The position numbers were made by a program, and so were the translations under genes. From positions 7,161-41,524 of the forward strand of contig CAMYIO010000014.1 in assembly GCA_947258515.1 (NCBI GenBank): a stretch of DNA of 34,364 nt, given 5' to 3'. The notes beneath the pieces were generated by a model, which saw only the letters and a program-made list of their open reading frames with translations, was not told where the DNA came from and did no database searches. Positions 20,283-30,530 of this stretch are shown piece by piece; position 1 is the stretch's first letter, and every line of letters starts with the position of its first letter. The stretch comes from an uncultured Ectothiorhodospiraceae bacterium. GTDB taxonomy: Bacteria > Pseudomonadota > Gammaproteobacteria > UBA9214.

Positions 20283-21080
20283 CTATTTGCCGAGTTCTGC
20301 GGTGACGAACGGGCGAATGGTTTTCAGTATTTCTGCAAATACCTTTGGATTGCCGGCGACAAGATTACCGCTCTCCAGGTAGGTGTGCCCACCCAGGAAA
20401 TCACTGGAGAGCCCGCCCGCTTCCTGGATCAAGAGGATCCCGGCCGCCATGTCCCAGACATTCAGGCCAATCTCCCAGAAACCATCGAGACGGCCGGCAG
20501 CGACGTAGGCAAGATCGAGTGCGGCAGCCCCTGGACGCCGGATGCCGGCTGTGCGCGGAAACAGCGCACGGAACATGTCGAGATAGGCGTCGAGATGATG
20601 CTGTGCCTTGAAGGGAAAACCGGTACCCAGCAATGCGCCTTCGAGTGAGTCCCGCTTTGTAACCCGCAGGCGCCGATCATTCAGCATCGCACCGGCACCG
20701 CGTGTTGCGGTGAATAATTCCTGACGCATCGGATCATACACCACACCCTGCTCCAGGCGGTCCTTGTGCCTGAGCGCAATGGAAACAGCAAACTGCGGGA
20801 AACCGTGCAGGAAATTGGTCGTGCCATCCAGCGGGTCGATGACCCACTGATACTCATCGCCCTCTTTCAGGCCACTTTCCTCGGCAAGAATGCCATGACC
20901 GGGAAAGGCCCTGCGCAGAACGCTGATGATCTCCTGTTCGGCCTGCCGGTCAACCTCGGTGACAAAATCGTTCCGGTCCTTGGAATGAACGGCCAGACTG
21001 TCCAGCCTCCCGAGGTTCCTGATTATGACATTTCCCGCACTGCGTGCTGCGCGGACCGCGATATTAAGTGTGGGGTTCAT
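20283..21080 (-). CDS. suhB: Inositol-1-monophosphatase family protein SuhB
   Basis: The 265-residue protein is a member of the inositol monophosphatase family. The metal-binding motifs are complete: ILAEESG near residue 65, WVIDPLDGTTNFLHGFP near 80-95 and LNVWDMAAGILLIQEAGG near 210-225. SuhB in E. coli dephosphorylates inositol-1-phosphate and also acts in rRNA antitermination complexes. The start ATG is at 21080. Neighbouring secDF and psd genes are housekeeping, and psd lies upstream on the same strand, separated by an inverted repeat. Confidence 0.95.
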   Translation of the reverse strand: MNPTLNIAVRAARSAGNVIIRNLGRLDSLAVHSKDRNDFVTEVDRQAEQEIISVLRRAFPGHGILAEESGLKEGDEYQWVIDPLDGTTNFLHGFPQFAVSIALRHKDRLEQGVVYDPMRQELFTATRGAGAMLNDRRLRVTKRDSLEGALLGTGFPFKAQHHLDAYLDMFRALFPRTAGIRRPGAAALDLAYVAAGRLDGFWEIGLNVWDMAAGILLIQEAGGLSSDFLGGHTYLESGNLVAGNPKVFAEILKTIRPFVTAELGK

Positions 21081-21145
21081 ACTGAATTTTCCTTACTGGT
21101 TCTAGCCGATGCATACAGAGCTGCAAGACCGGTATTATGGCCATT

Positions 21146-21213
21146 GAATCCACGGAAGAACACGGTAAATCAAATGTCTTACACATAATAATTTCGTGTT
21201 CTTGCGTGGATTC
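21146..21213. repeat. Large inverted repeat between psd and suhB (19-bp arms, one mismatch)
   Basis: The left arm GAATCCACGGAAGAACACG (21146-21164) pairs with the right arm (21195-21213), whose reverse complement is GAATCCACGCAAGAACACG. There is a single mismatch and a 30-base AT-rich loop. Beyond the arms a further GCCA matches after two mismatches. No T-run follows. The composition resembles dispersed intergenic repeats, but copy number cannot be seen from one window. Confidence 0.8.
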
Positions 21214-21269
21214 GCTGGCTATTGTATAAAACCGGCACTTTGCCTGACTTGGTTCCGCCGCCGTTGTTA

Positions 21270-22163
21270 TCACCTTGTAGTGATAGCAGGGTGAGCGATT
21301 ATTTGTCCCAGCTGGACTGGCTGTCCGGCCTGCAGGCTATCGTCCCAGACAATCAAGTCGGGCCCGTACAGGAGGATAACGGTCGACCCCATATTGAAAC
21401 GTCCCATTTCCTCACCACGCTGCAACTCAACGGCCTGGCTGCCTGATTGATCGATGACTGTTTTCTGCAGCGACATGGCCATCCGCGGATTGACGATGCC
21501 TGACCAGACGGTTTCCATGCAGGACACAAAAATGGCACCCACCATGATCAGGGCCATCGGACCCGCCGGTGTTTCAAACAGGCAGACCAGGCGCTCATTG
21601 CGCGCAAACAGCCCCGGTATGGCACGGGTCGTGTGTGCTGCCACACTGAAGAGACGACCCGGAATATAGGTCGTTTCAAGCAATCTGCCCGGGCAGGGCA
21701 TGTGAATCCGATGGTAGTCACGCGGTGACAGATAGAGCGTGGCAAACTTGCCGTTCCTGAACCGGGCCAGCTGTTCAGCATCGCCACCCAGCAAGGCCGC
21801 CAGTGAGTAGTCCCGTCCCTTTGCCTGTATCAGGCGCTCGGCAATGATGTCACCGGCCTGGCTGACATGGCCATCCACCGGACTGACAATTGACCGGGGA
21901 TCATCCGGAAACGGGCGTGTGTCCGCTTTCAGCGCGCGGGTAAAGAAGTGGTTGAAATCGCTATAGGCCTCAGCCCCCCGGGCCTCGGCGTCGTCCATGT
22001 TGACCCTGAAGTGTCTGATAAACAACTTGATCAGCAGGTTCTTGAAGCCGCTCATCCGCCAGCGGGTCATGCTTCGCACCAGCCGGGACAGCAGCTGATG
22101 CGGCAACAGGGCCAGCGGCCAGGACTTCAGCTGATCCAGCAGACTGGCAGGGCGTGTGGACAT
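21270..22163 (-). CDS. psd: Phosphatidylserine decarboxylase
   Basis: Psd converts phosphatidylserine to phosphatidylethanolamine at the inner membrane. The 297-residue proenzyme has the catalytic residues VSPVDGHVS (Asp), SPRDYHRIHMP (His) and the self-cleavage site FNMGSTVILLYG, where the serine becomes the pyruvoyl group. The site reads MGST rather than the LGST of E. coli, an expected conservative variant. It starts 12 bases after the PCu(A)C gene and is likely in one operon with it and the SCO gene. Confidence 0.96.
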   Translation of the reverse strand: MSTRPASLLDQLKSWPLALLPHQLLSRLVRSMTRWRMSGFKNLLIKLFIRHFRVNMDDAEARGAEAYSDFNHFFTRALKADTRPFPDDPRSIVSPVDGHVSQAGDIIAERLIQAKGRDYSLAALLGGDAEQLARFRNGKFATLYLSPRDYHRIHMPCPGRLLETTYIPGRLFSVAAHTTRAIPGLFARNERLVCLFETPAGPMALIMVGAIFVSCMETVWSGIVNPRMAMSLQKTVIDQSGSQAVELQRGEEMGRFNMGSTVILLYGPDLIVWDDSLQAGQPVQLGQIIAHPAITTR

Positions 22164-29350: not shown

Positions 29351-30433
29351 ATGAAACATAAAATTGCAATCTTACCAGGCGATGGTATCGGTCCCGAGAT
29401 CATCGCTGAAGCCCGCCGGGTGCTGGAGGTGCTGCAATCCGAACAGGGCCTGTCCATCGAGACCGAACAGGCCGATATCGGTGGTAGCGCCTATGACGCG
29501 CACGGCCACCCGCTGCCGGCATCGACACTGAAAGTGGCCCGCGAGGCGGATGCCATACTGCTGGGTTCGGTTGGTGGTCCGCAATGGGAAACACTGGAAC
29601 GGGCACTGCGCCCTGAACAGGGCTTGCTGGGATTGCGTTCCGAACTGGCGCTGTTTGCAAATTTACGTCCCGCAATCCTGTATCCTCAGCTGGTATCGGC
29701 ATCGACCCTGAAGCCGGAGGTCGTCAGCGGACTCGATATCATGATCGTCCGTGAATTGACCGGCGGCATTTACTTCGGCCAGCCACGCGGCGTTCGCACA
29801 CTCGATGATGGCCAGCGGCAGGGTTTCAATACACTGGTCTATTCCGAAACGGAGATAGAGCGCATCGGCCGATCTGCATTCGAGATAGCACGTAAACGTT
29901 CCGGACGGCTGTGCTCGGTTGACAAGGCCAACGTACTGGAGGTTTCAGAACTGTGGCGCGAGGTCATGACCGGACTTGCCGATGAATACACCGATGTCGA
30001 GCTGAGTCATATGTACGTCGACAATGCCGCCATGCAACTGGTACGGGAACCGAAGCAATTTGATGTCATGGTAACGGGCAACATGTTTGGCGACATTCTC
30101 TCGGATGCGGCCGCCATGCTCACCGGTTCTATCGGCATGCTGCCTTCCGCATCACTGGACAGTCAGGGCAAGGGTATGTATGAGCCCATCCACGGCTCGG
30201 CACCGGACATCGCCGGACAGGATATTGCCAACCCGCTGGCAACCATACTGTCTGTCTCGATGATGTTGCGCTACAGCCTGAACGAGGCAGCGCTTGCGGA
30301 GCGCATCGATACCGCTGTCGGCAGCGTGCTCGACACGGGTTTAAGAACGGCCGATATTGCCTCAGCCGGCACACAAACGGTGGGCACCCGCGCCATGGGT
30401 GACGCGGTTGTTGCCGCCCTGCAGTCCGGCTAG
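29351..30433 (+). CDS. leuB: 3-isopropylmalate dehydrogenase
   Basis: LeuB oxidatively decarboxylates 3-isopropylmalate to 2-oxoisocaproate with NAD. The 360-residue protein is complete: [39 protein letters not shown], the substrate-binding [49 protein letters not shown] and the NAD site [13 protein letters not shown]. The C-terminus [11 protein letters not shown] matches normal LeuB length, so the sequence that abuts its stop codon has not truncated it. Confidence 0.98.
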
Positions 30434-30530
30434 GAGCCTGTCGGACTTAGGTGATCGTAGCGAGCATGATGGGAGAACGAGTACAAATGGTCACGATTTC
30501 GAGGCGCATAGTGGGCCTACGCAACGAAAC
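30434..30530. repeat. Repeat/IS-end-like sequence between leuB and asd
   Basis: This stretch begins at the base after the leuB stop (GAGCCTGTCGGACTTAGG) and runs to about 30530, where Asd homology starts. It includes an imperfect hairpin with TTTCG (30497-30501) and CGAAA (30525-30529) as outer arms. From memory it resembles dispersed repeats and insertion-sequence ends in other proteobacteria that start with a GAGCCTGTCGGACTT-like terminal repeat, but I cannot name a family. The matching opposite end is not seen nearby, so it would be a remnant or solo end. Confidence 0.5.

Follow-up and report, generated by a model that had tools for sequence, protein, structure and literature searches.

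In the parts of two accounts on which we draw here (PMC2229807, PMC10969869), bacterial MITEs are short intergenic sequences that bear terminal inverted repeats, often end in TA and contain stem-loops. A stem-loop also lies between psd and suhB in the stretch of DNA that we analysed, the whole 34,364 bp of which we refer to as the window. Its arms of 19 nt each (21146-21164 and 21195-21213) carry one mismatch and enclose a 30-nt loop (21165-21194, plus strand), exactly as the first-pass annotation had described them. Alignment of 35 copies and inspection of the sequence mark this loop as AT-rich, and inverted-repeat searches extend the arms to 28 nt at 86% complementarity (21137-21164 and 21195-21222, plus strand). 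Among the seven inverted repeats in the window with arms of at least 14 nt lying within 120 bp, this one is the longest. The predicted RNA fold of the hairpin has an energy of -45.7 kcal/mol on the plus strand and -39.6 kcal/mol on the minus strand (z = -9.3 and -8.8, respectively), and 0 of 200 shuffles were equally stable.

Several lines of evidence indicate that this hairpin probably forms the palindromic core, 80 bp long, of a MITE-like element of ~190 bp that is non-autonomous and has spread through the genome and the genus. The first-pass annotation recognised the inverted repeat correctly but understated its extent, the repeated unit being larger than it supposed; its suggestion of a dispersed intergenic repeat or a MITE remnant is supported. 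Searching the arms across the genome, as it had proposed, returned dozens of copies: at up to three mismatches, the arm 23-mer occurs 56 times in its own genome (31 forward, 25 reverse; 29 exact), as against 0 for a reversed-pattern control. When matches are counted by strand, so that one palindrome can count on both strands, a 121-bp query gave 72 BLAST matches in this genome, and model R1 gave 105 matches among 135 scored of 720 candidates. The element is also common to relatives. At E<=0.01 the window sequence matched 20 of 40 genomes, its own included, corresponding to 19 of 23 from the same family and one of 17 from outside it; model R1, built from 17 copies taken partly from the genomes later searched, matched 21 of the 23 family genomes. 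The exact 23-mer is present in at least 98 stretches of named genomes, including Marinobacter, Tamilnaduibacter, Ectothiorhodospiraceae and Lysobacteraceae. There were no exact matches to it in viral contigs, and plasmid and phage collections held no match to the 80-nt consensus. Most sampled members of the bacterial family carry a searchable repeat family, defined by its arms together with TAGTACTG-type ends.

Two observations made on these copies concern assemblies. Contigs C23 and C161 both terminate within a single copy of the element (L005 and L006), likely the result of a fold-back assembly break at the palindrome, and copies were therefore counted with L005 but not L006, the two being one element. 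In addition, two loci titled Halobacteria archaeon (L129 and L112) contain this gammaproteobacterial repeat; L129 shares 71-77% identity with gammaproteobacterial loci over long stretches, from which we infer that the label of its bin is probably wrong.

Alignment of 35 full or near-full copies from the same genome defines the core as GCCACGGAATCCACGGAAGAACACGG-AT-rich loop-CCGTGTTCTTCCGTGGATTCCGTGGC (consensus GCCACGG...CCGTGGC), with limits that are sharp and common to the aligned copies and with arms composed of 9-nt units (..CACGGAA). In the window the core occupies 21140-21219 on the plus strand, window position 21140 corresponding to L001_1521. The sequence surrounding cores is 84-88% AT within 5-10 bp and 62-64% AT within 40 bp. 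Beyond the core lie conserved extensions, termed the A end (TAGTACTGGTTCAACCTGATAAAGATA..) and the B end (..TTGTTATCAGTTTGAAAGAGTACTA), which are partly inverted copies of each other. The A end of the window copy (21094-21139, plus strand) reads TACTGGTTCTAGCCGAT.., a degenerate version of TAGTACTGGTTCAACCTGATAAAGATA carrying ~14 additional nt, and adjoins the start of suhB; copy alignments place the B end, TATTGTATAAAACCGGCAC...TTGTTATCACCTTGTAGTGAT, at 21220-21284 on the same strand. The whole element thus spans approximately 21094-21284, give or take a few bases at either end. These limits derive both from alignment with copies from genus-mates and from a 184-position extended profile, positions 5-175 of which match window 21095-21279 (L001:1476-1660). 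Over its 191 bp the element has stops in five of six frames, with one minus frame open for 63 codons.

Terminal inverted repeats are present in the copies of genus-mates (TAGTACTGSTTCAAYCTGATAA versus TAATGCTCTTTCAAACTGATAA) and are degenerate in the window copy, which is a decayed member of the family. Less decayed copies from genus-mates (L239, L241, L242 and L243) share the same backbone and terminal repeats, some of them with different 9-nt arm units. By eye, among seven copies in which both outer ends could be read, TA stands at both borders in three, at one end only in three (one of them doubtful) and at neither in one. The element is supported directly by its dispersed copies, common boundaries and shared backbone, by the high AT content around it, by two arms that have decayed independently of each other and by the lack of a transposase gene inside it; its terminal inverted repeats, which are degenerate, and the TA at some of its borders likewise accord with the suggestion of a MITE remnant. 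Other repeats occur alongside this family. Comparison with the uninterrupted L242 reveals a further repeat (AAGGAACCCCTGATTAAT..) inserted in L241 with TTAA on both sides. A second dispersed repeat has one of its ends, CTAGGAGCCTGTCGGACTT, in the window at 30430-30448 (C14:37590-37608) and reaches ~30530. This end sequence occurs at 33 places in the same genome at up to three mismatches, 29 of them exact (reversed control, 1), often in inverted pairs 60-190 bp apart that resemble a CTAG-bordered MITE, and it adjoins a psd-type element in L018, L026 and L125.

The element fills the gap between the two genes, whose names are those of the first-pass annotation. On one side, suhB (20283-21080, minus strand; an ORF of 265 aa) starts ~13 nt from the A end. 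On the other, the 3' end of psd (21270-22163, minus strand; 297 aa) lies inside the element, and the TGA of the TGATAA in the B-end terminal repeat (21267-21272, minus strand) is the stop codon of psd (21272-21270). Nearly all of the gap in this genome thus consists of a mobile-element insertion that also terminates the psd reading frame. We compared this site in eight relatives in which psd and suhB lie near each other within the sequence retrieved: the element is absent from seven and present only in G011, with its backbone in the opposite orientation. This reversal suggests that the copies in G011 and in the window arose by two separate insertions, or that an inversion has occurred. Copies elsewhere in the genome show a similar relation to gene ends. 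Sixteen of the 35 own copies lie in co-directional gaps, 10 in convergent and three in divergent gaps, with three overlapping a called gene and three at contig edges. Of 34 gene ends that run towards an element within 150 bp, 23 fall within its limits; for the A side, 11 of 15 are located from -4 to +20 relative to where the element begins (counts based on home-made gene calls, with duplicates such as L014, L016, L040 and L054 among those excluded and L031 counted twice).

We propose that a transposase supplied in trans and recognising TAGTACTG.TTCAA ends would have moved the element, that insertion would duplicate a TA, and that the mobilising enzyme has either been lost since or escaped our searches. 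The TAG and TGATAA within the ends would supply a stop codon to genes at the insertion site, which may be why insertions at gene ends are tolerated. We looked for an autonomous partner in the 23 family genomes, nearly all of which are drafts. The A-end pattern occurred at 18 places in six of these genomes, none with a transposon (L254 looked like a chance match and L248 runs off its contig), and the B-end pattern occurred at nine places in seven genomes, again with no transposon; these places are copies or remnants of the element, or chance or cut-off matches. Other features count against a MITE. Conservation is lower in the terminal repeats than in the core, an unusual pattern among MITEs, and there is no clean target duplication: at the core borders, none of 91 combinations of length and offset stood out and the best matches were inconsistent. 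Moreover, in Marinobacter the core occurs without these ends.

In an alternative that we consider unlikely, the 80-bp palindrome is itself mobile and inserts where other inverted repeats have their AT-rich centres, and an older element that happened to carry it in this genus makes up the outer ~110 bp. The higher conservation of the core relative to the outer ends would fit such a history, as would the identical arms in Marinobacter, where A or B ends were found at 0 of 39 loci in a test that is not very sensitive (positive at nine of 36 loci from the window's own genome). Relative to the ends, the core can also point either way (among 26 copies from this genome and its relatives, 10 are forward, 15 reverse and one unclear, end orientation being weak in a few, e.g. 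L003 and L142). However, such flips are explained by arm-to-arm inversion, which the long arms would allow, the junctions of the core are identical in aligned copies, and searches with the ends in the genus gave no backbone without a core. Two candidates for a core-less backbone in the window's genome, the decayed A-end matches L236 and L237, both retain decayed cores.

Concentric nesting of arms also counts in favour of a mobile core. In the 98 loci listed, all of which were covered in a later examination after a first one of 80, we distinguished 121 arm clusters, of which 10 consist of one pair set concentrically within another, the gaps on the left and right being of similar size; a further 36 are simple pairs and 75 are of other kinds. 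At L140, L086, L089, L107, L161, L162, L175, L181 and L105, outer GCCACGGAATCC arms enclose inner arms related to them, again at similar distances on the two sides. At the orthologous sites L130, L144, L154, L163, L127, L133 and L150 the outer arms are kept while the centre consists of other palindromes of short repeated units, of the ACCGCAAAGGCGCAAAGG or GTGAAACGTGAAACG type. From the Marinobacter nests and the outer arms kept at orthologous sites comes a more specific and more doubtful idea, namely that the GCCACGGAATCCACGGAAGAACACGG palindrome is a self-moving hairpin module that prefers the AT-rich loops of other inverted repeats and builds concentric nested palindromes, its arms staying near-perfect as loops and flanks diverge. 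Were this so, the contrast between arms and their surroundings would imply a dedicated enzyme or an arm-correcting process. If the observation of nested palindromes in Marinobacter holds, repeat loops would be preferred landing sites.

A conserved regulatory or mRNA-processing structure serving psd and suhB, such as a terminator, a 3' stabiliser or an RNase III site, is in our judgement very unlikely. The fold is very stable on the transcribed strand and copies often stand directly behind stop codons, both of which favour such a role. Yet the hairpin lacks a T-run, and the arrangement of an intrinsic terminator, a G+C-rich stem and then a T-run, was not found there. A terminator scan, whose two matches in total equal the number expected from shuffles, returned nothing on the hairpin, its nearest match (21270-21294, plus strand) lying outside. 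Against Rfam the hairpin had no match at the gathering threshold, and a permissive scan gave sub-threshold models only. Two further points argue against a function tied to these genes: the element is missing at the psd-suhB site in most of the relatives compared, and its copies lie in gaps of every gene orientation. Nor did the arms of the 14 exact 80-bp copies, partial copies being excluded, yield positive evidence for the mRNA-stabilising structure that the first-pass annotation had entertained. Canonical pairs numbered 352 of 406 as compared to a shuffle mean of 349.5, and two-sided compensatory pair changes numbered four as compared to 4.3, such that arm covariation did not rise above shuffles. 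Mutations in the arms are mostly one-sided which, with no compensatory excess, points to decay after insertion rather than to a maintained RNA. Any effect on psd-suhB mRNA, through RNase III cleavage or 3'-end protection, would be a by-product, and the MITE-like element accounts for the hairpin with no gene-specific function.

Least credible is a repeat of the REPIN type that depends on a RAYT (Y1) transposase for its movement, an explanation already disfavoured: the genome has four Y1_Tnp genes and the inverted-pair architecture resembles REPINs, but the arms occur at none of the four loci within the fetched flanks of up to ~1.5 kb, the repeat that flanks the Y1_Tnp gene of L051 is another one, of the GTAG type, and the GTAG-type REP motif is absent from the arms. 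As in REP-RAYT systems, the RAYT-like gene of L051 has GTAGGAGCGCTTCGCAAGCGCGAT-type inverted repeats nearby. A reading of the hairpin as an integron attC site was considered in the light of the attC core motif and dropped.

The family is of a MITE-like kind, an ordinary sort of genomic parasite, and seems to be unnamed so far: in the open literature, string searches with the arms and ends found no description of it, and topic searches led to known MITE or REP work or to unrelated studies. With REP/REPIN-RAYT systems it shares dispersed intergenic palindromes; it differs from them in having no link to the four Y1_Tnp genes and in arms that lack the GTAG REP motif. Its sequence is presumably unlike those of Correia/NEMIS, RUP and ERIC/RU-1. 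It is also set apart from these three by its internal palindrome, which is made up of 9-nt units, is conserved better than any other part and is found in either orientation. In the portions of the accounts used here, Correia/NEMIS, RUP and ERIC/RU-1 resemble it in being short, non-coding and intergenic, with terminal inverted repeats, a stable stem-loop and tens to hundreds of copies, and in their TA ends, TA being present at several borders of the element (PMC2229807, PMC10969869). YPAL/RU-2 of Yersinia, as far as the relevant part of one account describes it, is similar in that its inverted repeats are internal and its targets lie at or near dyad symmetry; YPAL termini, in contrast, lack TA and its target duplications measure 3-26 bp, whereas our element has partial TA borders (PMC2229807).
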